Assembly: GCA_017942025.1 (NCBI GenBank) | Contig: JAGAVH010000017.1 | Span: 1-38,537 of the forward strand | DNA length: 38,537 bases | Source of the DNA: Ruminiclostridium sp. | GTDB lineage: Bacteria; Bacillota; Clostridia; Oscillospirales; Ruminococcaceae | Direction: 5' to 3' | Part shown: positions 6,661 through 36,349 of the stretch, in pieces | Position numbering within the stretch: the first letter of the stretch is position 1 | Layout of the letters: every line of letters starts with the position of its first letter | Position numbers and translations under genes: made by a program | Notes under the pieces: generated by a model | Seen by the model: only the letters and a program-made list of their open reading frames with translations | What the model was told of the DNA's origin: nothing | The model's database searches: none

Positions 6661-6675
6661 TATTCACTCCAGGCC

Positions 6676-6712
6676 AAAAAATCGGTCAGCCTTTCGGCTG
6701 ACCGATTTTTCT
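6676..6712 (+). terminator. Terminator hairpin opening the locus A promoter block
   Basis: A 15-bp perfect stem, 6677-6691 with 6696-6710 and loop TTTC, ends in TTTTT. The hairpin (core CGGTCAGCC/GGCTGACCG) is the first part of a block repeated before loci A and C and before the orphan gene at 36573. Confidence 0.8.
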
Positions 6713-6763
6713 TTCCCTCACTTTCCCTGTTGAAAAATTTTTTTAAAAAAGTTATTATAAAAT

Positions 6764-6794
6764 GGGAACATTTTAATAAAAAAGCTACACTTAT
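6764..6794 (+). promoter_or_regulatory. Putative ECF sigma promoter of locus A
   Basis: GGGAACATTTT at 6764-6774 and ACTTAT at 6789-6794 recur with near-identical spacing before ECF locus C (29588-29617) and before the orphan gene (36439-36469). The GGAAC-type -35 is what ECF factors commonly recognise (established knowledge). A conserved AT-rich tract (GTTGAAAAATTTTTTT then AAAAAAGTTAT) lies just upstream. It would allow the sigma factor to switch on its own operon. Confidence 0.6.
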
Positions 6795-6826
6795 CAATAT
6801 AGAAAACCATAGGGAGATGATATACC

Positions 6827-7381
6827 TTGCATATAGATGATGAGAAAATTATAGAAATGCTGTTTGACAGAGACGAACAGGCATTAAAAATTGCCGATAA
6901 AAAGTACGGACCGCTTTGCAGAAGGGTTGCCTATAACATAATAAAGAATCACGAAGAGGTAGAAGGCTGTGTCAATAACTCGCTCTTTCAGTTATGGAAC
7001 GCTATACCGCCTGCACGCCCAAAATCTCTCAAAGCGTATATATGCGGTATTGTCCGCAACGTTGCGGTAAAGATATGCAGAGAGCAAGCCCGTTATAATG
7101 AAAATCAAACGAATTTTTCAGAGCTTATTGAATTATTCAGCGGTGGAGAAAAAATCGAGGAGCAGCTTGACAGCAAAATACTCGGTGGTTATATAAACGA
7201 ATTTTTATCTTCTATTGATAAAACAAACCGAAAAATCTTTGTAATGCGGTACTACTACAATCTGCCTACAAAAAATATCGCATCGGTGCTGAACATAAAC
7301 GATACCACCGTCAGAACAAAGTTATTCAGAACAAGAGAGGAGCTTAAAATCTTCCTTATAAATAAAGGCTACAGGCTGTAA
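6827..7381 (+). CDS. ECF-type RNA polymerase sigma factor, locus A
   Basis: A 184-residue sigma-70-family protein with only regions 2 and 4. Region 2 includes NNSLFQLWNAIPPARP and SLKAYICGIVRNVAVK; region 4 includes NRKIFVMRYYYNLPTKNIA and the DNA-reading helix NDTTVRTKLFRTREELK. No ATG in this frame gives a full protein; the start is TTG 6827, after AGGGAG, as in its locus C paralogue. It is followed after 15 bases by the anti-sigma-like gene, the usual pairing. It likely drives the GGGAAC promoter upstream. From base 7001 onward the DNA is nearly identical to locus C, while the first ~58 codons differ more. The precise ECF group cannot be assigned by eye. Confidence 0.85.
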   Translation: MHIDDEKIIEMLFDRDEQALKIADKKYGPLCRRVAYNIIKNHEEVEGCVNNSLFQLWNAIPPARPKSLKAYICGIVRNVAVKICREQARYNENQTNFSELIELFSGGEKIEEQLDSKILGGYINEFLSSIDKTNRKIFVMRYYYNLPTKNIASVLNINDTTVRTKLFRTREELKIFLINKGYRL

Positions 7382-7662
7382 GGAAAGGAGTATATTATGA
7401 AAGAACTACACGATATTATAGCATCTGCCATAGATTATCTTGACGAAGAATATTCAGTCGAAGCGGCAGATTGCTTTCCTTTAAAGAAAAGCGGAACTTT
7501 AAGACAAAGCTTTGTAAATGCGGAGGATCTTGTTGAAATGAAAATTAAATCAAAAAAATCAGGCTTTATAGCAAAAATTGTAGCCGTAGCGGCGGCATTT
7601 GTGTGTGTTGCGACGGTTTCGGTATTTCTTATTGTGAATAATAATAAGGTGCAGGTGCTGGG
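7001..7662 (+). repeat. 662-bp block nearly identical to 29835-30496
   Basis: The block covers the 3' two-thirds of the sigma gene, the ribosome site and the anti-sigma N-terminus through the membrane helix. By eye there are about 20-25 differences and no indels (constant offset 22834). Flanking sequence on both sides is clearly more diverged. Confidence 0.8.
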
Positions 7663-9631: not shown

Positions 9632-9648
9632 CAGGCAGGTGATAATTA

Positions 9649-9702
9649 TGCTGAGTGTAAAAAATGTAACCAAAAGCTATGGAAAGAACAAAGCTTTGTA
9701 AA
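9649..9702 (+). pseudogene. 17-codon remnant of the ABC ATPase gene start
   Basis: The reading is MLSVKNVTKSYGKNKAL then TAA. Apart from a few silent changes it equals the start of the intact ATPase gene at 11835, including the preceding GACAGGCAGGT leader. It stops where the duplication junction switches into anti-sigma sequence. If translated, it could couple ribosomes to the next start at 9722. Confidence 0.85.
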
Positions 9703-9721
9703 TGCGGAGGACTTTGTTGAA

Positions 9722-11818
9722 ATGAAAGACAAATCAAAAAAATCAGGCTTTATAGCAAAAATTGTAGCCGTAGCGGCGGCGTTTATATGTGTTGCGGCGG
9801 TTTCGGTATTTCTTATTATGAACAATAATAAGGTGCAGGTGCTGGGCAATATGGAATCTGTTCTGTCGGGAGCAGAAGAATCATCAGACGAAAGCTACAC
9901 CCACCCCAGAGATGAACACCATCGCTATGGTTATAACATCGGCTACCGTGGAGATATCCCCACAGAATATAACGGCAAAGAGCTTACGCTTGATATAGAA
10001 ATGACCAATATCGGAGAAGACATCAAATATACATATTTTGTCTATGTAAACGGAATACTTACCGAATATAAAATGTCAGCGGAGGGAGAAAAAGCTCCTT
10101 TTCACACTTTATCCAATGAAGAAGGCAATGTAAAAACCACAAGACTTTATTTTACTCCCGTGAACTGTAAAAAGGGCGAAAAAGCTACTATATGTATAGC
10201 GTTTATGATAAATCCTGAATATATGCTACCTGATACAAGCTATGTAAATTTTTTCCCAAATCACAACATCACTTCCATTAATCCTTTGGAAATAACTATC
10301 AATGTGGATACACCGACAGACGAAAAATCTGAAATAGCCGATTGCATGGAAAAAACGCCTGTAACAAAGGAGTTCGAAGCAGAGTTTGCCGCACCTCAGC
10401 CGGATGATAAAAATTACAACAGGTTAGATAAACAAACTATATTAGAATTATATCAGGACTATCCTACGGAGGACTATCTTAAGGGTGATGACATAACGAC
10501 GGCAAAAATAAGGGCGATGGGATTACCCGGAAAGTATATTTTAAGCCTTTACGTAAACCACGAGACGGTGCCTTGCTTTGATGGTAAATATTACACAATG
10601 TGTGATGTGGAAAGAGAAAATATTTCACAATGCAATGTACAGTTTGATTCGTCTAATTTGCCTTCTTTGAGCCATATTTACATAATGGCGATACCATACA
10701 TTAAAGACGGTATTTCGTGGGCTGATAAAACAGAAACGAAGCTTCTGAGCTTAGGAGAAGAAGACAAAACAGAAACAACAACTGAAAGTGTACTATCCGT
10801 ACCGGAAATTGATGAGCCTTCAGAGAATGCGGAAATGATAGTTACAAGAGGCACTCCGGAAAAAATAATTTCAGGTGGCAACGGAAAGCTTTATCTGCAA
10901 TACTCTAATTCCTTCGCTTTGTACAGCGAAAGCAACGGCAATGAAACCTCTCTTGTTAGTCGCAAAGCCACAGAAAATCTTATACCTATGAAAAACGGCT
11001 TTGCTGTGTATGACCGTGATGGTTCGTATATGAAAATGTATGATAATAGCGGCAAGCTCCTGAATGAACATAATTTCTCTATCCCTGAAGGTACGAGAAA
11101 CAATTCGTTTGCTATAAACAGCGAAGAAACTAAAATTCTGTTTAGTTATACTGATTATTCCAACAAGGTGAGTCGCCTTGTTGCATACGATATACATACC
11201 TCAAAGGAAAGTGTCGCTGTCGAATTTGCCACGATTACTGAAGACAGCTTAAAGTCAGGCAATATAGTCGGAGTTTCGACTGTTTACGGGGCAGATAAAA
11301 ATACAGCTACTTTAAAAGCAATGAGTATAAAAAACTTTGATACAAACGGGAATATCGATATTGAAGATGTTATTATGACTATCAACCTCGAAAACGGCGA
11401 ATATATTCTGCATGAATTTGAGGATAAATATGAAAACTCGAACATCAATTATCTGATAAATCAGAAAAATTATCTTGTGCTTTTAAATGACAGCCCATCT
11501 GGTGCTTATCATGAGTTTGACGGAATTGTCCGCTATAAAGGATTTGCTGATAAAAATTTCAGCGAATTTAAGTGCGAGACCGGCAACGAAACCTGCCTTG
11601 TGGCATTATCGGAAAACGGCAGATATTTAGCCACATATGATGATAATGTTATAACGGGAGAAGTTACTGTAAGAGTTTATGATGTAGAAAGCGGTAAAGT
11701 AATCTACACCACAGATAAACACAGTTATGAAGTAACGGGAATGCAGGTAGATGAGCAAGCCAGATCGTTATATATATTAAGCCCAATCAATTGGTCGATT
11801 TACGTCTACAGATTCTGA
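9722..11818 (+). CDS. Duplicated anti-sigma-like sensor lacking the sigma-binding end, locus A copy 2
   Basis: A 698-residue paralogue of the 7397 gene, made by tandem duplication. It begins at MKDKSKKSGF, so the first 47 cytoplasmic residues are missing. The remaining N-terminus is about ten basic residues, then the membrane helix (~12-33) and the same ectodomain order: beta-sandwich, second beta region, linker and propeller. The start ATG 9722 uses GGAGG at 9706-9710, which was internal coding sequence in the parent. It cannot bind the sigma factor in the same way, so it may be a co-sensor or decoy forming complexes with copy 1; this is inference. The frame is intact over 2.1 kb, which argues for selection. 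It ends 16 bases before the ABC ATPase. Confidence 0.75.
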   Translation: MKDKSKKSGFIAKIVAVAAAFICVAAVSVFLIMNNNKVQVLGNMESVLSGAEESSDESYTHPRDEHHRYGYNIGYRGDIPTEYNGKELTLDIEMTNIGEDIKYTYFVYVNGILTEYKMSAEGEKAPFHTLSNEEGNVKTTRLYFTPVNCKKGEKATICIAFMINPEYMLPDTSYVNFFPNHNITSINPLEITINVDTPTDEKSEIADCMEKTPVTKEFEAEFAAPQPDDKNYNRLDKQTILELYQDYPTEDYLKGDDITTAKIRAMGLPGKYILSLYVNHETVPCFDGKYYTMCDVERENISQCNVQFDSSNLPSLSHIYIMAIPYIKDGISWADKTETKLLSLGEEDKTETTTESVLSVPEIDEPSENAEMIVTRGTPEKIISGGNGKLYLQYSNSFALYSESNGNETSLVSRKATENLIPMKNGFAVYDRDGSYMKMYDNSGKLLNEHNFSIPEGTRNNSFAINSEETKILFSYTDYSNKVSRLVAYDIHTSKESVAVEFATITEDSLKSGNIVGVSTVYGADKNTATLKAMSIKNFDTNGNIDIEDVIMTINLENGEYILHEFEDKYENSNINYLINQKNYLVLLNDSPSGAYHEFDGIVRYKGFADKNFSEFKCETGNETCLVALSENGRYLATYDDNVITGEVTVRVYDVESGKVIYTTDKHSYEVTGMQVDEQARSLYILSPINWSIYVYRF

Positions 11819-11834
11819 CAGGCAGGTAACAATT

Positions 11835-12710
11835 ATGCTTAGTGTAAAAAATGTAACCAAAAGCTATGGAAAAAACAAAGCTTTGGATAATGTCAGTATC
11901 AGCTTTGATAAAGGCATTTACGGAATACTCGGCCCTAACGGTGCAGGTAAAACAACGCTGATAAGCATAATAACAAAGCTCTTAAAGGCAGACAGCGGAG
12001 AGGTGCTGTATAACGGCTGTGACATAAAAAGAATGGGTACTGACTACCTCACAAAATTCGGCTATATGCCACAGTATCCGATGTTCTATCCTAATTTTAC
12101 GGGTCTTCAGATGATGGAATATATGGCAGCACTTAAAGGCGTAAAGGATAAAAGCATCATAGAAGAACTTCTCACCTTTGTAAATCTGCAGGCAGACAAA
12201 AACAAAAAAGTGGGAGCATATTCGGGCGGTATGAAGCAAAGACTCGGCATAGCGACAGCTATGGTGCATAGCCCTGAAATACTTATTCTTGATGAGCCGA
12301 CTGCAGGTCTTGATCCAAAAGAAAGAATGAGATTCCGTGGTACGATATCCGAAATATCCAAAAACACAACAGTCCTGATTTCTACTCACATAATATCAGA
12401 TATAGAGTATATGGCAAACAGTGTGGTACTGCTTGGTGGCGGTAAGGTGTATGAACAGGATTCGCCCGAAAATCTATGCAGGAAGCTGAAGGGAAAGGTA
12501 TGGAACGTAACAGTAGACAGCGAAAAGGATGCTGAATATATTGAAGATAATTTCCTTGTCAGCAGTATATCCCATAGCGACAGCTATAAAATAAGGCTTA
12601 TTTCGGATGAAATAACCGATTTTAGCGCTGAACAGACAGAACCGATGCTGGACGATGTATTCCTTTACTATTTTTCTGATAAGAGGACTGTATGCGATGA
12701 CTGTATTTAA
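11835..12710 (+). CDS. ABC transporter ATP-binding protein, locus A
   Basis: A 291-residue ATPase with all motifs in order: Walker A GPNGAGKT (~residues 33-40), Q-loop region GYMPQYPMFYPNF, signature SGGMKQRLGI, Walker B ILILDEP and the switch histidine in STHIISD. The ~70-residue C-terminal tail ends in LDDVFLYYF, matching LEDVCIYYF and LEDVCIYHF in the locus C and B copies; family members of this type serve ABC-2 exporters. AGGCAGGT precedes ATG 11835. It overlaps the next permease by 14 bases. It would power the two permeases downstream; the substrate is unknown. Confidence 0.9.
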   Translation: MLSVKNVTKSYGKNKALDNVSISFDKGIYGILGPNGAGKTTLISIITKLLKADSGEVLYNGCDIKRMGTDYLTKFGYMPQYPMFYPNFTGLQMMEYMAALKGVKDKSIIEELLTFVNLQADKNKKVGAYSGGMKQRLGIATAMVHSPEILILDEPTAGLDPKERMRFRGTISEISKNTTVLISTHIISDIEYMANSVVLLGGGKVYEQDSPENLCRKLKGKVWNVTVDSEKDAEYIEDNFLVSSISHSDSYKIRLISDEITDFSAEQTEPMLDDVFLYYFSDKRTVCDDCI

Positions 12711-13920
12711 GCTCACCCGTTTTGAACTAAAAAAGCTGTTTGCAAGAAAAAGCTTTATCATTCTTTTTGCGGTAATGTTTGTTGTCGGACTTGTAAATGT
12801 CGTAAGATATTACGAGCGTTATCATAGCGGCGATAAGCTTATGAATGACGGCAGATACCGAATCTACAGCGTTTTTAAGGGAGAGCTTACCGAGGAAAAG
12901 CAAAAGAAGATAGAAAAGCTTTATAACTATGCAATAGAGCTGAAAAACAGCGGTAATTTCGATAACGAATATAACCCCGAAAAATACTATTCAGGCTATG
13001 CCTACGGAGAAGCTAACCTCTTTATAGAGCTTTATAGCGAAATGAACAGGATATTAAGCTACGGCGATGATATCACTAAGATTGGAAGCGAAGGCAAAGA
13101 GCTTATAGAAAATAACAGCGGTATGAATGAGTATCTTGTAAGTCTCAATAATATGATATGCGATACGTATGGCGACAGAGAGCTTTCAGCTTTGAGTCAC
13201 AACAGCGGCGTAGCGGAATTTTTGGATTATAAATTTTCTGTTATTCTTATAGCAATGCTCCTTATTATCGGTGTTTCTTCTATCTTTATGGCAGATAAGA
13301 ATTACGGCTGCAGGGCATATCTTAAAACCTCTCTTTACGGAAGCGCTACCACCACCTTTGCAAAGCTTATGGCAACTGCCTTTTATGTATTTTCTGTATT
13401 ATTTATCTTTTTCATAACAGATTTTATCTGCTTTTGTGGATTTCTCAATATTGATGGACTTGATAAGCCTCTTTATTATCTTGCCGATTACTTTTATTCT
13501 CCTATAGAGCTTGATATATGGCAGGTGCTGATAATCGTCTTTTTCTGCAGATACATAGGACTGCTATGTTTAAGCTTTATGATAGCACTTATAACAAGGC
13601 TTTTACAAAGGTCTGTACCATCCTTCTTATTATCGGTTTTCTTATTTGCAGGCTTTATGTATCTTATGCTGATATGCACGACAGACAGCAGTAAGCTGAT
13701 ACGGATGCAAAATCCCATTAATCTGATTTTATGTCATAACAGCTTTAAGGATTTCGATGTTATAAATATCGGGGGTACACCCGTTTTAAGCTGTTTTGTA
13801 TCGGCTGTTGCAGTTTTGTCCTTATGCCTGTTGGCTGTTATCTTAATAATTCTCCCCGATATAAGTCATATAAGCTTTAAGAAAAGAGGTGACAGATATG
13901 ATAAAGCAGGAGCTGTATAA
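12697..13920 (+). CDS. ABC-2-like permease 1, locus A
   Basis: A membrane protein of about 407 residues, with one helix near the N-terminus (SFIILFAVMFVVGLVNVV), a long extracytoplasmic loop of ~170 residues, then five more helices. The loop carries FKGELTEEK and YYSGYAYGEAN, motifs conserved in the locus B and C paralogues. The start is ATG 12697, preceded by AAGAGGA, and it overlaps the ATPase stop, so translation is coupled; the frame also extends upstream to 12655 without a ribosome site. It ends 23 bases inside permease 2. It likely pairs with permease 2 as an ABC heterodimer. Confidence 0.8.
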   Translation: MTVFKLTRFELKKLFARKSFIILFAVMFVVGLVNVVRYYERYHSGDKLMNDGRYRIYSVFKGELTEEKQKKIEKLYNYAIELKNSGNFDNEYNPEKYYSGYAYGEANLFIELYSEMNRILSYGDDITKIGSEGKELIENNSGMNEYLVSLNNMICDTYGDRELSALSHNSGVAEFLDYKFSVILIAMLLIIGVSSIFMADKNYGCRAYLKTSLYGSATTTFAKLMATAFYVFSVLFIFFITDFICFCGFLNIDGLDKPLYYLADYFYSPIELDIWQVLIIVFFCRYIGLLCLSFMIALITRLLQRSVPSFLLSVFLFAGFMYLMLICTTDSSKLIRMQNPINLILCHNSFKDFDVINIGGTPVLSCFVSAVAVLSLCLLAVILIILPDISHISFKKRGDRYDKAGAV

Positions 13921-15505
13921 GCTGTTTATCAAAAATAAAATGCTTTTGGTATCTGTCCTTTTTCTTATCATAAGTACGGCTCTTACTCTTGTTGACGCTC
14001 TTTTTATATCCCGTCCTGACGGATGGTGTATGGAATATATTTATGTAAACGAAAGCGGAATCAACTGGCTGCTTATTTTTGTGATAATGATAGCCGTAAG
14101 ACAAAGCTATGTAATCGAATTTGAAAGCAGAATGGATAGCTTCCTGCTGACAAGCAAAAAAGGTTATTTAAGTCTTAATTTAATCAAGATACTCACTATA
14201 CTTTTTCTTACCATTATACTTTCTTTAGCAAGCGGATTTATAACACTTTTTATATACGGAGCAAGGTACGGCGTTGGCAATATCCTTATATCAGAGTGCG
14301 GCTTTGAATATGAAATCACAGTAAGGAGTCTGTCCGCTTTGTCGGCTTGTATTTATTCCGTATTGATAAACGCTGTAGGCTATGCGACGTATTCTCTTAT
14401 CTGTATATTTTTAGCTACAGTTTTAAGAGAAACGGTAATATTTATGACAGTTTCTTTATCGGTTATAATTGCACCTGTTTATCTTGTACAGAATATTTCC
14501 GACAGAATAAGACTGCCTCTGCCGACTTCCCTTATAAGCGGAACGGCATTGTTCAGAGGCTCTTTATCCTATATTGACGAACACGGAAACGAGAGCTTTT
14601 TATATAAAGAGCTTGGCGATAATGAAATTATCTCGAATATATTATTACTTACCGTTATAGCAGTAGCGTTAGTTCTTATAGCGATGCTTATTTTCTGCAG
14701 AAAGGTCCCGAAAATAAAGTTCAGAGCTTTGTCTTTGCTTGCTGTATTTGTATTTTCATTCACGCTTACGGGATGCAGTACCGAAAAGCTTTGCCCATCA
14801 GATGAAGTAAAGTATTACGTAAAGCCGGGATCTTTTGATGAGATCTGTGATATAGAAAGCGGAAAAGAATTTTCCATAAGCGTAACTCCCTTTTCAAAAA
14901 AGAAGCTGAAAAGTATTTACGGAGAGTATGCGGCAGTCACAGAGCCGATAAAGGACAGCACCGAAGCCAGCGAAATTAAGCTTGTAAATCTTACCGATTT
15001 TTCGGAAAGGGTGATAATGACTATAGGTACTAACCTTAATACCGACGGCCTTCTCGGACTGGAGGACGTTATAGGGATACCAAACTTCTTCAGATATGAT
15101 AATAGCGGAGAGCTCGCCTCATCGCAGATGGTATTGTATCAGGATAAGCTGTATATTGCTCATAATAACGAGATTATCGGGATTGACATAAACCTGAACA
15201 CGCAAACGACATATAAAATGCCATCTGCAGTAGGAAATCTTAAAATTTCGGATAACGGCTTTTATTACGTGAATGAAGAAGGTGAGCTTTATAACGATGA
15301 TAAGGCTCTTAACATCTTCCCCGAAAGATATTATATCTATGGCGAAAGAATTTTCTGCACCTTGCGGGATGAAGAAGGCTTATTCTGCTTTGCAGACGGC
15401 GGGAGGACAAAGCTTTCGGATGATGTGGTAAGAGAAATTCTGTATGCTGACGAAGAAAACCTCTACTGCTTTGACGGTAAAAAGATACTTGAAATAAAAT
15501 ATTAA
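13898..15505 (+). CDS. ABC-2-like permease 2 fused through an internal lipobox to an ectodomain, locus A
   Basis: A 535-residue protein. Residues 1 to ~270 hold about six membrane helices. A basic stretch (CRKVPKIKFRA) and a hydrophobic segment then end in a perfect lipobox, LTGCS, with Cys293, followed by about 240 extracytoplasmic residues with propeller-like beta repeats (VLYQDKLYIAHNNEIIGID, then ISDNGFYYVNEEGELYNDD). The whole is one open frame. The start is ATG 13898 after AAGAGGTG; the in-frame GTG 13889 is part of that site. Unlike the B and C copies it lacks the large first extracellular loop. It is either an uncleaved hybrid or one processed internally into permease and lipoprotein. 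A bidirectional terminator follows. Confidence 0.75.
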   Translation: MIKQELYKLFIKNKMLLVSVLFLIISTALTLVDALFISRPDGWCMEYIYVNESGINWLLIFVIMIAVRQSYVIEFESRMDSFLLTSKKGYLSLNLIKILTILFLTIILSLASGFITLFIYGARYGVGNILISECGFEYEITVRSLSALSACIYSVLINAVGYATYSLICIFLATVLRETVIFMTVSLSVIIAPVYLVQNISDRIRLPLPTSLISGTALFRGSLSYIDEHGNESFLYKELGDNEIISNILLLTVIAVALVLIAMLIFCRKVPKIKFRALSLLAVFVFSFTLTGCSTEKLCPSDEVKYYVKPGSFDEICDIESGKEFSISVTPFSKKKLKSIYGEYAAVTEPIKDSTEASEIKLVNLTDFSERVIMTIGTNLNTDGLLGLEDVIGIPNFFRYDNSGELASSQMVLYQDKLYIAHNNEIIGIDINLNTQTTYKMPSAVGNLKISDNGFYYVNEEGELYNDDKALNIFPERYYIYGERIFCTLRDEEGLFCFADGGRTKLSDDVVREILYADEENLYCFDGKKILEIKY

Positions 15506-15536: not shown

Positions 15537-17561
15537 CTACTCCTTATCAAAACTGAAAAAGAAAACCCCATCCCTACTGTGACAGATCAGTTTTCCGTTT
15601 AAAAGCCATACTGTATCCTTATACTGAAAATCCGTCTGCTTGCCGTCTTTTGTAATGAATACCCCGTCTGAAGAAATTGCATTTCCGTCATAAACAGAAT
15701 ATATTTCGCCTATATCAAGGAATTTCTCTTCCGAAAGATCATCAGCGTTATATCTGTAGGTCATATTGTCGTTTGTGCAGTAAACGTATTCTCCGTCAGA
15801 GCATATACCAAAGAATATTCTGTCTGACATAACAGTCTTTTCACCGTCAAAGCACACCGGGTTACCGTCTGAATTTATATAAAATATCTTACCCTTTGCC
15901 ACACATATATCATTCATATAGCTTTCTTTAAAAAGCAGGGTGCGGACACCTGTAGCCACGTCTATAGAATATACTCCATACTCTTCGGTAAGAATACAGA
16001 GCTTGCCGCCGCAGGTGAACATTTTACGGATGCACCCCGTATCCGTAAGACCGTCGTTCCATATTGTAAGGGTGTCAAGATACTTGCTGACGTTATTTGA
16101 GTCATCGGAGGTATAAACAAGCTCCTTACGGAAGGTTTTAAGGTCGATGCGGTGTATATAGTGCGGCATCGCACCTTTTTTCTGACCCCAATAATAGAGA
16201 TATCCGTCAAAGCAGAGCATATCATTTATATCCTCGTCTTGAAAGACCTCTCTTAAAATATCATCGTGAATAATTTTAAGCTCGCTATCATACATCTGTA
16301 TTTTGTAGCCTGTCGGCGAGCTGTGTTTGTCGGTTTCGGTTACAAGATTATAGTAATTTATACCGTCTGTACACAAGCGGGAAGAAACGACCTCCTGCCC
16401 GCCTTTACCATTATAGGAACAGCCTGACATCAGCAGAATAAACATACTTAAAGCGACTGTAAGAGTTGCTTTATTTTTTATTCTGAAAGCCTTTACACTG
16501 CCCAGATAGATCATAACCGCCGTAACAATTAAGACTATAGCTATAAGGATAAGCAGAACAAATACAGTAGTCGGAACAGCGTTATGCTGAAGCATTACAA
16601 GATTTCCCACCGTTATATAATAATCTCCCGTAAAATAGGGACTGCCAAGCACCAGAGAAAAAGGCGAATAATAGGTCACGTTATTCGGAGAAAAGAGATA
16701 TATCCACACGCATACAGCCGCTAACGGCGCAAATAGTGATAATGGGAGATTTTTTGTAAGGGTACACAGGATAATGCAGACCGAGGCTAAAAGAAGATAG
16801 CCGATAAGCTTTGTAAACTGTATCAATGCAAATCCGCCTGCGATATCAAGGGATGGGTAGGGAGTATGCTCGAAAGCACTTAACGAGCCTATGCCGCATA
16901 GCATATTTTCAGCACCGAGGATGCTTATAACCGAAACAAATTCAGTTATGAGAAAGGCAAGCCAGCATAAGAAAATAAGCGAAAATAAGGCGGTAAGTCT
17001 GTAAAAAGCCGACCTTCTGCCCTTTACCGCAGTTTTTGTGAGTGGGACTGTCTTTCTTTCATAATAACACATCATTGCTGACAGATAGCATATAAGAATT
17101 ATAAGAAGATATTCTGCACCCACCGTCATTCCGTTTGCGTCAGAGGGGAGCATAAGCAGATTTTCTTTATCACGGCTTACCCTTTTATAATTTTCATAGA
17201 GCAAAGCTATAGCGTCATACTTTTCTATGATATCGGGTACTTCGCTCATAGCCTGCATAAATTCTTCGGGAGTTTCATATTCTCCCCTTGTTCTTTTTTC
17301 CATTATCTGCGTCTGCAAGGCTTTTGCAGACTGTACCTCACCGTAAAGAGAGAGTATCTCCTGCTCCTTGTCATCGGTTATTCTGCCGCCATATTGCTCC
17401 ATATACTGAAGATAATATTCCTGCTGAAAATGGTCTAAATGACTGTAGCTTGTTTCGTAAAGAAAACCGCTTGTAGCGAGCTTTATAATAAATACAATAA
17501 GGGCGAGAACAAGTCCGTACTGCTTTATAAAGAGCTTTTTAAATTCAGCCTTTAACAGCAT
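15537..17561 (-). CDS. ABC-2-like permease 2 fused through an internal lipobox to an ectodomain, locus B
   Basis: A 674-residue protein with the same plan as the locus A and C counterparts. An N-terminal helix is followed by a large extracellular loop (YGGRITDDKE, then SRDKENLLMLP) and five further helices. A basic KAFRIKNKA stretch and a hydrophobic segment end in LLMSGCS with Cys381, then ~290 extracytoplasmic residues with propeller-like repeats (LCFDGYLYYW, KGKIFYINSDGNPVCFDG, CSDGEYVYCTNDNMTYRYN). AAGGAGG precedes ATG 17561, which overlaps the stop of permease 1 by ten bases. It is the last gene of the locus B operon. The lipobox Cys and upstream basic/hydrophobic pattern look like an intact lipoprotein signal inside a polytopic protein. 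Confidence 0.75.
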   Translation of the reverse strand: MLLKAEFKKLFIKQYGLVLALIVFIIKLATSGFLYETSYSHLDHFQQEYYLQYMEQYGGRITDDKEQEILSLYGEVQSAKALQTQIMEKRTRGEYETPEEFMQAMSEVPDIIEKYDAIALLYENYKRVSRDKENLLMLPSDANGMTVGAEYLLIILICYLSAMMCYYERKTVPLTKTAVKGRRSAFYRLTALFSLIFLCWLAFLITEFVSVISILGAENMLCGIGSLSAFEHTPYPSLDIAGGFALIQFTKLIGYLLLASVCIILCTLTKNLPLSLFAPLAAVCVWIYLFSPNNVTYYSPFSLVLGSPYFTGDYYITVGNLVMLQHNAVPTTVFVLLILIAIVLIVTAVMIYLGSVKAFRIKNKATLTVALSMFILLMSGCSYNGKGGQEVVSSRLCTDGINYYNLVTETDKHSSPTGYKIQMYDSELKIIHDDILREVFQDEDINDMLCFDGYLYYWGQKKGAMPHYIHRIDLKTFRKELVYTSDDSNNVSKYLDTLTIWNDGLTDTGCIRKMFTCGGKLCILTEEYGVYSIDVATGVRTLLFKESYMNDICVAKGKIFYINSDGNPVCFDGEKTVMSDRIFFGICSDGEYVYCTNDNMTYRYNADDLSEEKFLDIGEIYSVYDGNAISSDGVFITKDGKQTDFQYKDTVWLLNGKLICHSRDGVFFFSFDKE

Positions 17562-18709
17562 TTTCTTCCCCTCCTTATTGCAAAGGCTATAAAGATAACC
17601 GACAAAAGAGCTACCACAAAAAGAGCCACAACAAAGCTGAATACGGGAAAGCCCAGCACGTCAGTCAGCTTTACTCTGCTGAACATATCCGATGTTCCTA
17701 TAAGGGACGTGGGACTTATTTCTGACGGGATATGCTCTGACAGAATTACAAGCAGAAATGCCGTTCCCATAGAAACCGCCATTGAAGCTATCTCGTTTTT
17801 TGATAATGCGGATATAAAAACCACCATAAAGCTAAAGGTCAATAAAAATGTAAGCCTTAAAAGATAGGTCATAAATACCGCACCTATAAAAGTAAGCTCA
17901 AAGGGGCAGTTTTTAAAGGCTTCTATAGCGTATATCGGAAGATTTAAACCGTCAAAGCCATATATCTGCTGATAGTAAATTACATCCGATGCAAACAGAA
18001 TAAAGGAGCTTATAACGGTAAAAAAAGAAGCGGTAATAATTTTCGCTATCATTACCCGTGTTCCCTTTCCCGTTGATACTATCAGTCTGTCATAGCCTAT
18101 ACTTTTTTCCTTTGCCACAATGGGAGAAATGGCAAGAATGATAATAAGCATAGATAGAATCGTAGAAAACTTATAGTCAAAAAGAGCGCTATATGCTCTT
18201 GTCCTGCAAAAGCTATCAACTGCTCTCGACTTATAGCAATCTGCCAAAAGCAGATTTTTCCGATAGTCATAATCGTTTATGCCTTTAAAAAATTCAGCAT
18301 TGGAAAAAGCCTTTTCAGAAAGACTATTACTGTAATCCGAATACAAGATAGCATATTCGTAGGCTTTGATAATATCCTTTGTTACGTTTACGTCACCGTA
18401 AGGATAACCCGTGTAGCTATCCTCTATCGGCTCTTCTATAATGCCGTATTCCTTCAGCTTTGCTTCTGCGGTTTTAAGCTCTGCTTTCAGCATTTCTATC
18501 TTTTCATCTGTAATCTCGCCACGGTATTTTTCATACAGAATTTCTTCTCCGATAACAGTTCTGTCCTTACCGCCAAAAAGAACGTTTCTGCCGCCGCCCG
18601 TATAATAATATATCTCCAGCACCTTTACAAGATTTATCAAAAGAAAAACCGAAAGAGAGATAATTATTGACGGCTTTAATATGTATTTCTTTATTTCGTA
18701 TTTAAGCAT
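17552..18709 (-). CDS. ABC-2-like permease 1, locus B
   Basis: A 385-residue protein with one N-terminal helix (SIIISLSVFLLINLVKVLEI), a long extracellular loop with YRGEITDEK and SYTGYPYGDVN, and five C-terminal helices; it is paralogous to 12697 and 33400. It starts one base after the ATPase stop and overlaps permease 2 by ten bases, so the three are translationally coupled. Confidence 0.8.
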   Translation of the reverse strand: MLKYEIKKYILKPSIIISLSVFLLINLVKVLEIYYYTGGGRNVLFGGKDRTVIGEEILYEKYRGEITDEKIEMLKAELKTAEAKLKEYGIIEEPIEDSYTGYPYGDVNVTKDIIKAYEYAILYSDYSNSLSEKAFSNAEFFKGINDYDYRKNLLLADCYKSRAVDSFCRTRAYSALFDYKFSTILSMLIIILAISPIVAKEKSIGYDRLIVSTGKGTRVMIAKIITASFFTVISSFILFASDVIYYQQIYGFDGLNLPIYAIEAFKNCPFELTFIGAVFMTYLLRLTFLLTFSFMVVFISALSKNEIASMAVSMGTAFLLVILSEHIPSEISPTSLIGTSDMFSRVKLTDVLGFPVFSFVVALFVVALLSVIFIAFAIRRGRKCC

Positions 18710-18710
18710 A

Positions 18711-19568
18711 TTATCCTATCTCTCCGAAATGATAGATGCAGACGTCTTCCAGTGACGGCTGAACTGATACTGCGTCCTCTGTCGGCTTTTCATCCGATAC
18801 TACTCTGACGTTAAACAACTCGCCCTCGCTTACTACGTTGCTGACACGCTTTTCTTTCATCAGCTCCATGCCTTTGTCATAATCGGTGACTGTTTCCCAC
18901 ACCTTGCCGTAGATATTACTGCAAAGCTCTGTCTGGGATGCACAGTCTATCATTCTGCCCCTATCCATAAGTACGACGTTCTTTGCGATAAAGGCAATAT
19001 CCGTTACAATGTGGGTTGCAAGAATTACAATCTTGTCATTTGCAAGGGAAGAAATAACGTTGCGAAAGCGTATTCTTTCCTTCGGGTCAAGACCTGCCGT
19101 CGGCTCGTCAAATATGACTATCTTCGGCTCGCCCACAAGAGCCTGGGCAATACCAAGCCTTTGCTTCATACCGCCTGAATGTGCGCCCACCTTCTTATTT
19201 CTGTCATCATAGAGATTCACTCTTTTCAGTATCTCGTCAGCATAGGTCTTGGGATCATCCGCCTTTACGTCCTTTAACGCCATAGAATAAAGTATCATCT
19301 CTCTTGCGGTAAAGTTAGGATAAAAGTCCTGATTCTGCGGTAAAAAGCCAAGCCTTTTCATATAATCCCTGTCGCCGTTATCATCAAAAATTATACTGCC
19401 GCTATCGGCTTTTATTATCCCCGTTATGCAGTTTATAAGGGTGGATTTTCCTGCACCGTTAGGGCCTAAAATTCCGTACACACCCTTTTCTAAGGTAAGC
19501 GTAAAGCTGTCAAGTGCCTTTTTGCCTTTAGAGTAGGCTTTTGAAAGCTCTCTGATCTGTAACGTCAT
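18711..19568 (-). CDS. ABC transporter ATP-binding protein, locus B
   Basis: A 285-residue ATPase with Walker A GPNGAGKS, LGFLPQNQDFYPNF at the Q-loop, signature SGGMKQRLGI, Walker B IVIFDEP and switch ATHIVTD. The C-terminal extension ends LEDVCIYHFGEIG. CCGGAGGAT precedes ATG 19568, 17 bases after the lipoprotein gene stop. It is closest by eye to the locus C ATPase (shared LASDKIVILATHIVTDIA-like stretch) rather than locus A. Confidence 0.9.
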   Translation of the reverse strand: MTLQIRELSKAYSKGKKALDSFTLTLEKGVYGILGPNGAGKSTLINCITGIIKADSGSIIFDDNGDRDYMKRLGFLPQNQDFYPNFTAREMILYSMALKDVKADDPKTYADEILKRVNLYDDRNKKVGAHSGGMKQRLGIAQALVGEPKIVIFDEPTAGLDPKERIRFRNVISSLANDKIVILATHIVTDIAFIAKNVVLMDRGRMIDCASQTELCSNIYGKVWETVTDYDKGMELMKEKRVSNVVSEGELFNVRVVSDEKPTEDAVSVQPSLEDVCIYHFGEIG

Positions 19569-24580: not shown

Positions 24581-25129
24581 CTATATATCGTAGCCCTTGC
24601 CCGAAAGGAAGCTTTTAAGCTCCCTTTTAAGTCTTTGCAGGTGGGATTTCACCGTTGATTCATTCATCTTCAGCATATCTGAAATGTCTTTTAAAGAATA
24701 ATTGAAATAAAATCTTAAAACAAATATTTTCCTTCTGTTATCCCTTTGTTGTGACAGAAATTCATTTATAAAGCCGCCGAGCAATCTACTGTCGATAATG
24801 CTTTCAATATCCCTGCCGTCGCTTATTTCTGCAAGCTCCGATGCAAAGGGAACGTCGTCTCTTCTGCTCCTTCTTTTAAACATCGCAAGGGCGGTATTCC
24901 GCACTATAGCACACAGATACGCCTTTAACGAATCAGGTCTTGCGGGCGGGATAGAATTCCACAGGCTGAAATAGGAGGAATCCACACATTCTGAAACGTC
25001 CTCCTTATTATGTAGGATATTATCCGCAACCCTTCTGCACAGATCTCCGTATTTCTTTTCGGTATATGATAAAGCAAGCTCGTTTCTGTCAAAAAAGAGG
25101 CTTACTATTGCTTTGTCTTCAGGATACAT
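24581..25129 (-). CDS. ECF-type RNA polymerase sigma factor, locus B
   Basis: A 182-residue ECF sigma factor with region 2 (VDSSYFSLWNSIPPARPDSL, AYLCAIVRNTALAMFKRR) and region 4 (RRKIFVLRFYFNYSLKDIS, NESTVKSHLQRLKRELK). It is clearly paralogous to the locus A and C factors but more distant. It starts at ATG 25129 after AAAGGAG, unlike the TTG starts of its paralogues. It heads the seven-gene operon running to 15537. Confidence 0.88.
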   Translation of the reverse strand: MYPEDKAIVSLFFDRNELALSYTEKKYGDLCRRVADNILHNKEDVSECVDSSYFSLWNSIPPARPDSLKAYLCAIVRNTALAMFKRRSRRDDVPFASELAEISDGRDIESIIDSRLLGGFINEFLSQQRDNRRKIFVLRFYFNYSLKDISDMLKMNESTVKSHLQRLKRELKSFLSGKGYDI

Positions 25130-29447: not shown

Positions 29448-29501
29448 TATCCGCAGATTCACAACGGGCTGAATTGTATCAATTACCGCAATCTTTGCCA
29501 A

Positions 29502-29542
29502 AAAATCGGTTAGCCTTTCGGCTAACCGATTTTCCTTTCCCT
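29502..29542 (+). terminator. Terminator hairpin opening the locus C promoter block
   Basis: A perfect 14-bp stem, 29502-29515 with 29520-29533 and loop TTTC. Compared with the locus A hairpin, GTCAGCC/GGCTGAC has become GTTAGCC/GGCTAAC: both arms changed, pairing kept. It is followed by the shared CCTTTCCCTCAC tract. Confidence 0.8.
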
Positions 29543-29587
29543 CACATTCACAGTTGAAAAAATTATTTAAAAAAGTTATCAAAAAAC

Positions 29588-29617
29588 GGGAACATTTTAA
29601 AAAATTTTTTGACTTAT
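29588..29617 (+). promoter_or_regulatory. Putative ECF sigma promoter of locus C
   Basis: GGGAACATTTT (29588-29598) and ACTTAT (29612-29617), with the shared AT-rich tract upstream. The sigma gene starts 44 bases after the -10. Confidence 0.6.
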
Positions 29618-29660
29618 TTAATAGAAGGGTTTTAAGTTTTTCAGAAAGGAATGATGCGTT

Positions 29661-30215
29661 TTGGTAATAAGCGATGAGCGTATTATAGAAATGCTTTTTG
29701 ACAGAGATGAGCAGGCGTTGACCGTTGCTGATGATAAATACGGATCACTTTGTCAGAAGCTTGCATATAAGATAATCGGAGATTATGACGAAGCAAACGA
29801 ATGTGTAAATAATTCGCTTTTTCAGCTCTGGAATGCTATACCGCCTGCACGCCCAAAATCTCTCAAAGCGTATATATGCGGTATCGTCCGCAACGTTGCG
29901 GTAAAGATATGCAGAGAGCAAGCCCGTTATAATGAAAATCAAACGAATTTTTCAGAGCTTATTGAATTATTCAGTGGTGGAGAAAAAATCGAGGAGCAGC
30001 TTGACAGCAAAATACTCGGCGGATACATAAACGAATTTTTGTCTTCTATTGATAAAACAAACCGAAAAATCTTTGTAATGCGATACTACTACAATCTGCC
30101 TACAAAAAACATCGCATCGGTGCTGAACATAAACGATACCACCGTCAGAACAAAGCTATTCAGAACAAGAGAGGAGCTTAAAAGCTTCCTTATAAATAAA
30201 GGCTACAAGCTGTAA
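29661..30215 (+). CDS. ECF-type RNA polymerase sigma factor, locus C
   Basis: A 184-residue ECF factor, paralogue of the locus A gene. Residues from ~59 onward differ from it at only one or two positions, including all of region 4, so both should read the same -35 element. The N-terminal part differs more (VISDERIIEMLFDRDEQALT). The start is TTG 29661 after AAAGGA; the nearby ATGs at 29651 and 29654 are out of frame. The anti-sigma-like gene follows after 15 bases. Confidence 0.85.
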   Translation: MVISDERIIEMLFDRDEQALTVADDKYGSLCQKLAYKIIGDYDEANECVNNSLFQLWNAIPPARPKSLKAYICGIVRNVAVKICREQARYNENQTNFSELIELFSGGEKIEEQLDSKILGGYINEFLSSIDKTNRKIFVMRYYYNLPTKNIASVLNINDTTVRTKLFRTREELKSFLINKGYKL

Positions 30216-30496
30216 GGAAAGGAGTATATTATGAAAGAACTACACGATATTATAGCATCTGCCATAGATTATCTCGACGAAGAATATTCAGTCGAAGCGG
30301 CAGACTGCTTTCCTTTAAAGAAAAGCGGAACTTTAAGACAAAGCTTTGTAAATGCGGAGGACCTTGTTGAAATGAAAGACAAATCAAAAAAATCAGGCTT
30401 TATAGCAAAAATTGTAGCCGTAGCGGCGGCGTTTGTCTGTGTTGCGACGGTTTCGGTATTTCTTATTATGAACAACAACGGAGTGCAGGTGCTGGG
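29835..30496 (+). repeat. 662-bp block nearly identical to 7001-7662
   Basis: Partner of the locus A block: sigma 3' part, intergenic ribosome site, and anti-sigma N-terminus through the membrane helix. Identity ends sharply after GTGCAGGTGCTGGG, where the ectodomains begin. Confidence 0.8.
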
Positions 30497-32535: not shown

Positions 32536-33399
32536 ATGCAATTAGTTCTTGATGGTATTACAAAATCCTATACCAAGGGTAAAAAGAGAAAGAATGCACT
32601 TGAGGATTTTTCTCTCACTATGACCGAGGGCGTTTACGGCCTGCTCGGTCCTAACGGCGCAGGTAAATCCACACTTATAAACATTATCACAGGCATAATC
32701 AGCAGGGATAGTGGCAGTATAGCCTTTGATGATAACGGAAACAGCGATTTTGTATCTCATCTCGGCTTTATGCCGCAGGGTATGGATTTTTACCGCAATT
32801 TCACCGCCAAGGACTATATAAAATACATAATGGCATTAAAGAAATTCAGTACAGATAATGACAACGAATATGCCCTTGATATTCTTACAAGAGTAAATTT
32901 AAGAAATGACGCTGATAAAAAGATAGGTGCATTTTCAGGCGGTATGAAGCAAAGGCTTGGCATCGCCCAGGCGATAGTGGGTAATCCTAAAATCCTTATA
33001 TTTGACGAGCCGACGGCAGGTCTTGACGCAAAGGAAAGAATCCGCTTTCGAAACGTTATAAGCTCCCTGGCATCAGACAAAATAGTAATACTTGCTACTC
33101 ACATAGTTACCGATATTGCCTACGTTGCAAAGACGGTTGTACTTATGAATGAAGGGAAAACAATAAAGACGGGAACACAGGAGCAGCTTTGCTCTGATAT
33201 ATCGGGTAAGGTATGGGAATGCAGGGTAAAGCCGGATGAGGTAATGGACTATATGTCAAGAATGCGTGTATCCAATGCGGTTTCTGACGGTAACAAGTAC
33301 ACCCTACGCATTGTATCCGACGCCTCTCCTGTAGAAAATGCGGTATCGGTAGCGCCGAATCTTGAAGACGTGTGTATTTATTATTTTGGAGATATGTAG
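32536..33399 (+). CDS. ABC transporter ATP-binding protein, locus C
   Basis: A 287-residue ATPase with Walker A GPNGAGKS, LGFMPQGMDFYRNF, signature SGGMKQRLGIAQAI, Walker B ILIFDEPTAGLDAKE and switch ATHIVTD; the tail ends LEDVCIYYFGDM. GAAAGGAAA precedes ATG 32536. The stop is directly followed by the permease ATG (no gap). Confidence 0.9.
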   Translation: MQLVLDGITKSYTKGKKRKNALEDFSLTMTEGVYGLLGPNGAGKSTLINIITGIISRDSGSIAFDDNGNSDFVSHLGFMPQGMDFYRNFTAKDYIKYIMALKKFSTDNDNEYALDILTRVNLRNDADKKIGAFSGGMKQRLGIAQAIVGNPKILIFDEPTAGLDAKERIRFRNVISSLASDKIVILATHIVTDIAYVAKTVVLMNEGKTIKTGTQEQLCSDISGKVWECRVKPDEVMDYMSRMRVSNAVSDGNKYTLRIVSDASPVENAVSVAPNLEDVCIYYFGDM

Positions 33400-34578
33400 A
33401 TGAGGCTGTTTAAATATGAACTTAAAAAGAATATACTGCGTATATCGGTGCTTTTGCTTCTTCTTGCTTTAGTTCTTGTCAATGCATATAAGCAATACGA
33501 AACTGCAAAATTTTTAGGAGAAAGCGGAATAGCAACAGGCGTGCAGTATAAATCCGATTTAGGCAGACCTATGTATGAGGCCTTCAAGGGTGAATTATCT
33601 ACCGAAAAATTAGAAGAAATAAAAAGTTATCACGAAAAAATGGGAGAGCTTATCCATAGCGGTGATTTTAAACCTACAAACGAGAGTGATGACAGGTTTT
33701 ATTCAGGCTTTGCTATGGGGGACTTCAACGAGTCATCCCGAACCATTGACAGAATGATGTACGCTTATACATATCCCAATCTTATGATAGAGCTTAAAGA
33801 ACGGGCAAATGAAAATATAGCATTTTACGAGGGCAGAAGCGATTATGAGGTAAGAAAAAACCGTCTTGTAGCCGAGCTTTACATCGGCAGAAAAATAAAC
33901 GTATACGGAAATTACGGAGCATTCAAGCTGTACTTTGATTACGAATTTTCCACCCTTGTTATTATCGTTATGCTGATTTACGCCTTCGCAACCTCTTTCA
34001 CAAATGAAAAAGCGACAGGTACAGACAGAATTATCCGTTCCTGTCATAGAGGGAAAAGCGTTTATCTTACAAAGCACGCCGTAATGTTACTTTATATTTT
34101 TATATCAGTTGTTTTATTCACGTTGCTTGACGTTGTCCGATTCTGCTCCTTTTATGACGGCACGTTTATAAATCAGCCTCTTTATGCGATAGAAGAATAC
34201 AAATACACGCCCTTTAATATTACCATACTCGGTGCAATAATATTATCAACGTTTGTAAAGCTTATTGCACTTAGCTTTGTGGGAGAGCTTGTATTTGTAA
34301 TCTCCTCCTTCACTAAAAATGCAGGACTTGCTATAGCCTTAAGCTTTGCGTCAGCAGGTGCGGTTATCCTGATAAGTGAGCGTATTCCTTCGGTGTTTTC
34401 GCCGCTTTCACTTGTAAATGCAGAGTCCTGGCTTAAAGACCCTCAGTTTATAAATATACTGGGACAGCCCGTGCTGAGTTTCTTTGTACAGCTTATATTT
34501 GCGGTAGTGATAACGATAGCTCTTGCAATAATCTGTTATTTAAAAACTGCATATAAAAAAAAGGAAAAGAGAATTTGA
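33400..34578 (+). CDS. ABC-2-like permease 1, locus C
   Basis: A 392-residue protein with an N-terminal helix (ISVLLLLLALVLVNAY), a long extracellular loop with FKGELSTEK and FYSGFAMGDFN, then five helices from ~180 on. It is paralogous to 12697 and 18709. It begins on the base after the ATPase stop, and permease 2 begins one base after its own stop. Confidence 0.8.
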   Translation: MRLFKYELKKNILRISVLLLLLALVLVNAYKQYETAKFLGESGIATGVQYKSDLGRPMYEAFKGELSTEKLEEIKSYHEKMGELIHSGDFKPTNESDDRFYSGFAMGDFNESSRTIDRMMYAYTYPNLMIELKERANENIAFYEGRSDYEVRKNRLVAELYIGRKINVYGNYGAFKLYFDYEFSTLVIIVMLIYAFATSFTNEKATGTDRIIRSCHRGKSVYLTKHAVMLLYIFISVVLFTLLDVVRFCSFYDGTFINQPLYAIEEYKYTPFNITILGAIILSTFVKLIALSFVGELVFVISSFTKNAGLAIALSFASAGAVILISERIPSVFSPLSLVNAESWLKDPQFINILGQPVLSFFVQLIFAVVITIALAIICYLKTAYKKKEKRI

Positions 34579-34579
34579 T

Positions 34580-36349
34580 ATGGTTTTTTTATTTGAGCTT
34601 AAAAAAATTCTTTTAAAACAGCACGCCTTACCTTTATACCTTCTTGTTATAGCTGTTGCCTTCTTCTCTATGCTGTTTGCCAAGCCGCAGAATTATGGCT
34701 TTATATCATCAGCTGAAAGAAACGATTATCTTGAAGCTATATCCCCTTTTGAAGGTGCGCTTACAGAGGAAAAGGAAAAGGGCATAATAGCACTTAAAGA
34801 GGACTTTCTTGAAGTAAAGGCACTATTCTCAAAGCTGAATGACGAATATATGGCAGGCAATATTGACGAAAAATATTATCAGCAGATGCTATATAAGTAT
34901 AGCGAAGCCTTAAACCGTCAGAGCATTATAGACACTGTCTTTGAAAGATACGAATACGTATCAGCGGATAAGGAGAATCGTATGCTTATACCTGCGGAAA
35001 ACGTCCCTGTTATGAGTGATATTTCGGTAAATTATCTCTTTTTACTGTGCATCGCTTTTTGCTGTGCCTATGCTGTGATGATAGAATATACAGGAAAAAC
35101 GAACTATATTCTTGTTACAACTAAAGGCGGTCAGAAAAATGTGATGGAGTCAAAGGTCATTATTTTGCTTACACTTACCGCACTTACAAGTATTATCATT
35201 TCAACTTTCGATCTTGTGCGACTTGCAAACGAGCTTCCCATAAAATACTGGGATTATAGTCTTTGCTCTATCCCTCATTTTGAAACTACAGAATTTTCTA
35301 TCAGCATAATAGGAGCGTTTTTAATTTCTCAGCTTATAAAGCTTTCAGGCTATCTCTTTATCGCCGTTTCGGCAATGCTTACCGCCCATTTTACAAAGCA
35401 TTACGTAGCAAGTGTATTTCCTTTTATCGCTGTTCCTGTGGTGGCGGATTATCTTGCCGAGAAAAACAGTCAGGCGTTATTTTTACCTACCGGCTTTCTC
35501 AAAGGTATAGGTTACTTCTTTGGTGATGAATTTTATAAAGGTGCCGGAGCAGGTGCCGAGCCTGTTGTCAGCTTTTATCACGTACCGCCGATATATACTT
35601 TGATTATGGCGATAGCTATTCTTATATTTATTGTTATAGGTGGCGTTATTCTGATAAAATCAGGAGAAAACCGACTTTTACGGGGGAGGCGTAAATACAG
35701 GCATATCATCCCTGTTACCTCCCTGCTGTTTGTTTCGCTTCTCTGTACCGCCTGCACGTCTGTAAGCGAAGGAAAGACAGTTGATGTCCTCAATTGTAAC
35801 GAAAATGACAGATATAAATTTGAAATAATTTATTCTGATAACAATGAGAGTATCCAAGTAACCGATAAAACAAACGGAGAGAGCTTTTTTATACCTGAGG
35901 ATGTTTTTCCGAAAGATCACTATTCTGTTATCGATATATTCCCGACAGAAAATTATCTTTATTACCTGATGGGTATTGGTAGCAACGGCGATTCGCTTTA
36001 TCGCATAAGGCTTTCGGGTATGACGAAGGAAGAGCTTATAAAGCCTATGGATAGTATCCCTAAAACAGCCCTCGGACTTGCCTTTGTCGATGTCGATGCA
36101 GAAAACAGAGTACGGGTAAATAAGCTCTTTACCGATGAAAAAAATATATTTTTTATAGACTTATACGGCAGAGTGCTTATGTTAAACCCTTTTGCAAAGA
36201 CTCTGAACGACTGCACCTGCATAATAGAGGAGGACGTCGGCACGGATATCAAATTTGACGGAAAAAGTATCCGCTACACCGACAAAAAAGGGGTAGAAAA
36301 AAGGTATGATATAGCAGCAAAAACAATTACAGAAAATCCTTTAAAATAA
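34580..36349 (+). CDS. ABC-2-like permease 2 fused to an ectodomain through a lipobox-like site, locus C
   Basis: A 589-residue protein with an N-terminal helix, a large extracellular loop (FEGALTEEKE, later SADKENRMLIP), and five more helices. A very basic stretch (RLLRGRRKYR) and a hydrophobic segment end in LLCTACTS with Cys392, then ~200 outside residues (YLYYLMGIGSNGDSLYRIRL, ENRVRVNKLFTDEKNIFFI). The lipobox is weaker than in A and B because position -3 is Cys rather than Leu. The N-in basic stretch plus hydrophobic segment plus Cys arrangement is nevertheless the same in all three loci. Confidence 0.75.
   Translation: MVFLFELKKILLKQHALPLYLLVIAVAFFSMLFAKPQNYGFISSAERNDYLEAISPFEGALTEEKEKGIIALKEDFLEVKALFSKLNDEYMAGNIDEKYYQQMLYKYSEALNRQSIIDTVFERYEYVSADKENRMLIPAENVPVMSDISVNYLFLLCIAFCCAYAVMIEYTGKTNYILVTTKGGQKNVMESKVIILLTLTALTSIIISTFDLVRLANELPIKYWDYSLCSIPHFETTEFSISIIGAFLISQLIKLSGYLFIAVSAMLTAHFTKHYVASVFPFIAVPVVADYLAEKNSQALFLPTGFLKGIGYFFGDEFYKGAGAGAEPVVSFYHVPPIYTLIMAIAILIFIVIGGVILIKSGENRLLRGRRKYRHIIPVTSLLFVSLLCTACTSVSEGKTVDVLNCNENDRYKFEIIYSDNNESIQVTDKTNGESFFIPEDVFPKDHYSVIDIFPTENYLYYLMGIGSNGDSLYRIRLSGMTKEELIKPMDSIPKTALGLAFVDVDAENRVRVNKLFTDEKNIFFIDLYGRVLMLNPFAKTLNDCTCIIEEDVGTDIKFDGKSIRYTDKKGVEKRYDIAAKTITENPLK

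Follow-up and report, generated by a model that had tools for sequence, protein, structure and literature searches.

Introduction

Fusions of a transporter to an outside binding domain are already known. OpuABC is an ABC importer with a substrate-binding domain fused to its permease, and a 2002 review by van der Heide and Poolman is said to cover such fusions of permeases and binding proteins. Lipoprotein signals, by comparison, are defined and generally predicted as N-terminal features. In Lachnospiraceae, TAXI-GltS fusions join a transporter and a binding protein naturally (PMC12344293). They share with the proteins described here an origin in gut Firmicutes, and their binding protein is of a class that often occurs as lipoproteins; because their binding domain is N-terminal, an internal signal is unnecessary (PMC12344293). 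The lipobox itself is given as [LV][ASTVI][GAS]C in a review on lipoprotein maturation (PMC8048626).

Here, we describe a family, found in gut Clostridia, of ABC permeases with a complete lipoprotein signal and an outside beta-propeller-like domain. As in ABC-2 type permeases, ATPase, permease 1 and permease 2 are encoded in a row, and there are six hydrophobic segments with a large loop past the first; the difference is that in the proteins of the window a lipoprotein signal and then an outside domain follow the permease. OpuABC-type importers are alike in that an outside domain that is free elsewhere has been joined to the end of a permease, whereas the fusions described here have a beta-propeller-like domain, belong to an ABC-2 type transporter and carry a lipobox Cys in 52 of 52 cases. 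Free beta-propeller lipoproteins such as BamB and the DUF5050 proteins differ in turn, since the lipoprotein here starts inside another protein. Among the matches listed from the open-licence literature, judged by title and opening of the abstract, none describes an internal lipobox in a polytopic protein.

Methods

The window, i.e. the whole stretch of DNA that was analysed, is the entire contig C39 (38,537 bases) of a Ruminiclostridium sp. genome of 2.5 Mb in 80 contigs (83% complete). A full-length alignment (A1), whose seed included two extension-less permeases, was used for a profile search of 396 family and 394 order genomes. An alignment of the extensions (A2) was used for a profile search of 71 genus, 396 family and 394 order genomes, these sets being overlapping. 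Sixty-six regions were fetched, and 60 of them together with the window were scanned for fusions. Most regions had been picked by a profile match across the junction or the extension, so that extensions without a lipobox may be under-sampled; inside the fetched regions, candidates were selected by permease domain and tail length alone.

Our strict lipobox test combined the motif, for which G/S/A at position -1 was demanded, with a hydrophobic core and two basic residues, and 51 of 53 candidate ORFs passed it. L149|4037 (MVGC) fails this test and was counted as a fusion, while L116|12208, not being a fusion, was excluded. ORFs with short tails (up to 80 aa; 14 cases) were left aside, among them a fusion truncated by a contig end (L160, lipobox LCSC). 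This ORF, a fragment with LSGC at a contig edge (L092) and the G809:C48 match all lie outside the 52 fusions.

Results and discussion

Three operons with the common gene order ATPase, permease 1, permease 2 were found in the window, each preceded by an ECF-type sigma factor gene and at least one large protein gene (Table 1). The extension is present in permease 2 of all three loci and absent from permease 1 of all three. In case of locus 1, the ATG start of permease 2 is preceded by GAGGTG; the longest ORF begins at GTG 13889.

The initial annotation had pointed to three ORFs with Cys residues at positions 293, 381 and 392, and these are as it stated. Its description of a Cys that ends the last hydrophobic segment and is preceded by a basic stretch is likewise borne out, the segment being an extra signal-type helix that follows the permease segments. 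Structure models of loci 2 and 3, both of low confidence (mean pLDDT 62.8 and 56.8, respectively), place six permease helices before a basic link. This link consists of 10-16 Lys/Arg-rich residues between the permease segments and the signal segment, with CRKVPKIKFR (locus 1), KAFRIKNK (locus 2) and RLLRGRRKYRH (locus 3) ahead of the signal, and the signal segments end in LTGC, MSGC and CTAC. The 200-290 outside residues that had been claimed compare with 242, 293 and 197 residues past the Cys, and no more hydrophobic segments follow there. With six helices ahead of it, the link would be cytoplasmic and the domain past the seventh segment would lie outside, so that this segment is oriented like the signal of a lipoprotein.

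Both the basic n-region and the hydrophobic core of a lipoprotein signal are thus found before the lipobox. With respect to the published lipobox pattern, G/S/A occupies position -1 in 52/52 fusions, while Met (locus 2) and Cys (locus 3) are found at position -3. The signal is N-terminal in the free lipoprotein homologues and internal in the fusions. The locus 2 extension is modelled as a beta-propeller, and in the structure-model comparison propeller matches filled the list, with the permease fold absent among the matches listed. A sequence search of solved structures with the A1 alignment gave nothing significant. In line with an ABC-2 permease, 49 of the 52 fusions have a permease 1 gene immediately upstream, and an ATPase gene is present at every locus of the window. 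None of the three permease 2 proteins of the window is assigned to a Pfam or NCBIfam model, and among 14 aligned members the Pfam matches to ABC2_membrane_3 and ABC2_membrane_4 are weak (E ~1e-4) and confined to one and two members, respectively.

Table 1. Positions and strands of the operon parts in the window.
Feature	Locus	Position	Strand	Remarks
ECF-type sigma factor, upstream	1	6827..7381	+	match to profile built partly from same protein
ABC ATPase	1	11835..12710	+	Pfam / NCBIfam search
Permease 1	1	12655..13920	+	without extension
Permease 2	1	13898..15505	+	535 aa; permease part ~1-266, then basic link, lipoprotein-type internal signal and outside domain
Internal signal	1	14726..14773	+	hydrophobic core and lipobox LTG
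Cys293 codon	1	14774..14776	+	invariant lipobox Cys
Outside domain	1	14774..15505	+	242 aa past Cys; weak PorZ propeller match, below cut-off
Permease 2	2	15537..17561	-	674 aa; layout as locus 1
Outside domain	2	15537..16421	-	293 aa past Cys; predicted beta-propeller, residues 388-674
Cys381 codon	2	16419..16421	-	invariant lipobox Cys
Internal signal	2	16422..16469	-	hydrophobic core and lipobox MSG
Permease 1	2	17552..18709	-	without extension
ABC ATPase	2	18711..19568	-	match to profile built partly from same protein
ECF-type sigma factor, upstream	2	24581..25129	-	match to profile built partly from same protein
ECF-type sigma factor, upstream	3	29661..30215	+	Pfam / NCBIfam search
ABC ATPase	3	32536..33399	+	match to profile built partly from same protein
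Permease 1	3	33400..34578	+	without extension
Permease 2	3	34580..36349	+	589 aa; layout as locus 1
Internal signal	3	35705..35752	+	hydrophobic core and lipobox CTA
Cys392 codon	3	35753..35755	+	invariant lipobox Cys
Outside domain	3	35753..36349	+	197 aa past Cys; beta-rich, low-confidence model

Other arrangements of these parts were seen in the fetched regions. L099:3942-6179 and L101:6022-8172 encode double permeases of 717-746 aa, in which permease-1-like and permease-2-like parts are fused without a long tail and which adjoin an operon containing a fused lipoprotein. Many further A1 profile matches are ORFs of 700-870 aa and may resemble these double permeases. L099:11070-14111 and L166:1420-4437 have approximately 650-660 residues past the permease, about twice the usual extension length.

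Permease 2 with an extension was found in 52 proteins from 35 genomes and four families of the order, based on the 60 regions and the window. Relatives of locus 3 in named records come from metagenome bins of Clostridia, including one of Ruminiclostridium sp. from the colon of a roe deer. The initial annotation had proposed the conservation of the lipobox Cys as a check, and all 52 fusions keep it in one alignment column; a homologue with the extension and without the Cys does not occur among these 52, a sample mostly chosen by junction or extension match. Three columns of the alignment are invariant, namely the lipobox Cys and two permease Gly, at median pairwise identities of 21% (permease) and 17% (extension). 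The Cys is kept in 30/30 clusters below 70% permease identity, and when 28 extensions and three free lipoproteins were aligned it was the sole invariant column of 434. In a first batch with tails longer than 100 aa, the lipobox was present in 35/35. At -1, 34 of the 52 fusions have G, 12 have S and 6 have A; these residues were part of the strict test, yet no fusion failed on the -1 residue. Among the 51 strict matches, position -2 is mostly S or T, position -3 is L in 37, and position +2 is mostly S or G.

A lipobox arising by chance at the end of a helix was considered and rejected. Control hydrophobic segments, taken from the other segments of the fusions and from 59 permease-1-type ORFs, had a lipobox-like motif in 15/659 cases, where a motif near the segment end sufficed and no core or basic-residue condition was applied, compared with 52/52 fusions. 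A scan of the 560 fetched-region ORFs with a length of 200 aa or above gave 47 with an internal lipobox-like signal, all 47 belonging to the 52 fusions; here the thresholds were tighter and had been set after the fusions were known, and 5/52 fusions failed them. Further, the signals were scored with a position matrix built from 80 N-terminal lipoprotein-like signals of the same regions, each of which was left out in turn. Median scores were 19.0 for the internal and 22.0 for the N-terminal signals, while non-signal windows reached 9.9 (best other window of the permease part) and 8.7 (permease-1-type proteins). The internal signal was the top window of its protein in 50/52 fusions. In case of the window, scores of 21.3, 8.9 and 12.4 were obtained for loci 1, 2 and 3, and the signals of loci 2 and 3, with Met and Cys at -3, do not reach the score of 14.3 that marks the 10th percentile of the N-terminal signals.

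Split versions in related genomes, for which the initial annotation had suggested looking, do exist. In a genome of the same genus (G803), ATPase, permease 1 and a 368-aa permease 2 are followed by the gene of a 321-aa lipoprotein with a signal ending in LCGC; the start codon of this gene and the stop codon of permease 2 overlap in the sequence ATGA. In a profile comparison, this lipoprotein aligned with the extensions from the signal onward (probability 99.3%, E 1.5e-20); a BLASTP comparison of the locus 3 extension with it was not significant, the kinship being visible by profiles only. Contig C38 of the window's own genome and G778 have a further permease 2 of 384 aa that ends in the link just past helix 6, and both clusters contain three free lipoproteins each (254-280 aa) that are homologous to the extension. 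One of these six (L147:11450-12250) has Pro at -3 and fails the lipobox test.

In a tree of the extensions (49/52 fusions and seven free proteins), the six free lipoproteins form one clade (100/99) inside the fused extensions, and this nested place rests on midpoint-rooted trees with long branches. In the permease tree, which was rooted in the same way, the two split permeases and 14 fusions form a 16-row clade (100/100). The simplest history would be that the C38/G778 lineage came from a fused ancestor, whose extension was detached and then functioned as a lipoprotein through the same Cys. The nesting suggests that a once-internal signal became N-terminal in the free lipoproteins of C38 and G778. 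Such a detachment would have been favoured by an internal signal that had remained a good one. We are unsure where the G803 split form is to be placed in this history.

Several other matches concern the extension alone or in part. In G010, an extension-less permease is accompanied by a 324-aa lipoprotein approximately 200 bp downstream (L110), which we do not count as a proven split because this lipoprotein has no extension-profile match. A free 329-aa lipoprotein of G265 (L200:8459-9445) covers most of the extension profile (E 4e-12); since its contig is without an ABC gene, it may be a free homologue of distant kinship. In G137, a 191-aa fragment that lacks a signal matches the extension profile (E 2e-23), and partial matches were found in G062, G371, G768 and G804, the one in G371 covering little beyond the signal.

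These results confirm the observation that the permeases run through a lipobox into an outside domain. An old permease-lipoprotein fusion had been offered as one reading of it and internal cleavage and lipidation as another. The former is well supported by the ATGA pair of G803 and by the extension-less permeases and free lipoproteins of C38 and G778, and the two readings are compatible. Lipidation and cleavage of the fusions are strongly suggested by the conservation described above. We consider it likely that an ancient permease-lipoprotein fusion carries a working internal type II signal and is lipidated and cut into two products. One gene would then probably yield a membrane permease and a lipid-anchored surface protein from a single chain. 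That the released domain works beside the transporter is something we infer, and its role as a sensor is a guess.

In mechanistic terms, permease 2 would join, in frame, a six-helix ABC-2-type permease with cytoplasmic ends to a complete lipoprotein comprising n-region, hydrophobic core, lipobox and beta-propeller-like domain, and the seventh hydrophobic segment would act as a type II signal that starts mid-chain. The nascent permease would insert into the membrane and the seventh segment would enter with its basic end inside, followed by export of the outside domain, addition of diacylglycerol to the lipobox Cys by Lgt and cleavage immediately ahead of this Cys by LspA. Each chain would give two products in 1:1 numbers, a 7-helix permease retaining the signal and an N-terminally lipid-anchored domain beside the ABC transporter, both under the same sigma-factor operon. 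We lean towards seeing in permease 2 a natural bacterial polyprotein matured by Lgt and LspA, so that each chain would give an ABC permease, in which the used signal remains as helix seven, together with a single partner anchored by lipid.

The enzymes of this pathway are represented in the source genome by one LspA match and two Lgt matches. To our knowledge, all known Lgt and LspA substrates have N-terminal signals. The review describes that Lgt takes the lipobox of a membrane-embedded signal arriving via a side cleft, and that the cut by LspA falls between position -1 and the lipid-modified Cys (PMC8048626). Nothing in the mechanism as reviewed appears to need a free N-terminus. We know, however, of no test of Lgt or LspA on a signal behind six helices, and on balance regard lipidation with cleavage as likely, lipidation without cleavage as rather unlikely, and the absence of both as improbable.

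Were Lgt to acylate the Cys and the protein to stay one chain, the seventh helix and the lipid would together tether the outside domain to the permease. The gene fusion alone already yields such a 1:1 tether, and we know of no internal lipoprotein signal that is an LspA substrate; however, the scissile -1 residue is G/S/A throughout the 52 fusions, an LspA gene is present in the genome, and the split forms have both parts as separate chains. If the protein was neither lipidated nor cut, an ordinary seventh helix would anchor a C-terminal outside domain, comparable to other ABC families in which substrate-binding domains are fused to permeases, and the Cys would be kept by descent or for another role. 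The low matrix scores of two window signals would fit this, but the Cys is invariant while median identity elsewhere is 17-21%, its surroundings vary inside lipobox-like limits, and in the free homologues this Cys is likewise used, there following a signal at the N-terminus.

An internal translation start, i.e. a second start codon before the signal that would give a free lipoprotein besides the full-length protein, seems very improbable. Thirty-five of the 52 fusions were examined, and ATG, GTG or TTG is found 13-40 codons ahead of the Cys in 28 of them, but ATG in just 16, and a Shine-Dalgarno-like stretch precedes such a start in 1/35, on which ground this explanation was rejected. Two genes joined by a sequencing error in annotation or assembly can practically be dismissed because the same in-frame join recurs in 52 proteins, 35 genomes and four families of the order, even though many genomes are fragmented and the members L087, L109, L151 and L152 are interrupted.

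If internal signals work as proposed here, predictors reading only protein starts overlook such surface proteins, and Lgt and LspA must take substrates that are attached to six helices. A working internal signal would also be a simple route to a permease and its surface partner in 1:1 numbers. Should permease 2 indeed be a polyprotein, LspA would be a processing enzyme for membrane complexes, beyond removing N-terminal signals. An invariant Cys, fused and split pairs within a genus and paralogues in one genome make the question open to direct testing.

Further observations concern the surroundings of the three operons. Positions 6673-7662 and 29497-30496, covering the sigma factor and the start of the next gene, are 88% identical over 1 kb, and the two tandem genes behind the locus 1 sigma factor (7504-9698 and 9688-11885) are 84% identical over 2.2 kb. 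We read these high identities between operon parts as signs that the operons have recently undergone duplication or gene conversion. The gene at 22926-24566 (-), which comes immediately after the sigma factor gene of locus 2, encodes a protein with a hydrophobic segment close to the N-terminus and a domain resembling solute-binding proteins (SBP_bac_1, E 1.6e-5, narrowly short of the cut-off), while the other loci carry an unlike kind of protein at this position. It is possibly an anti-sigma factor with a binding-protein sensor. At the contig end (38051-38537), 291 bases recur as a direct repeat with 98.6% identity and a shift of 196 bases, and this tandem repeat may have ended the assembly there.
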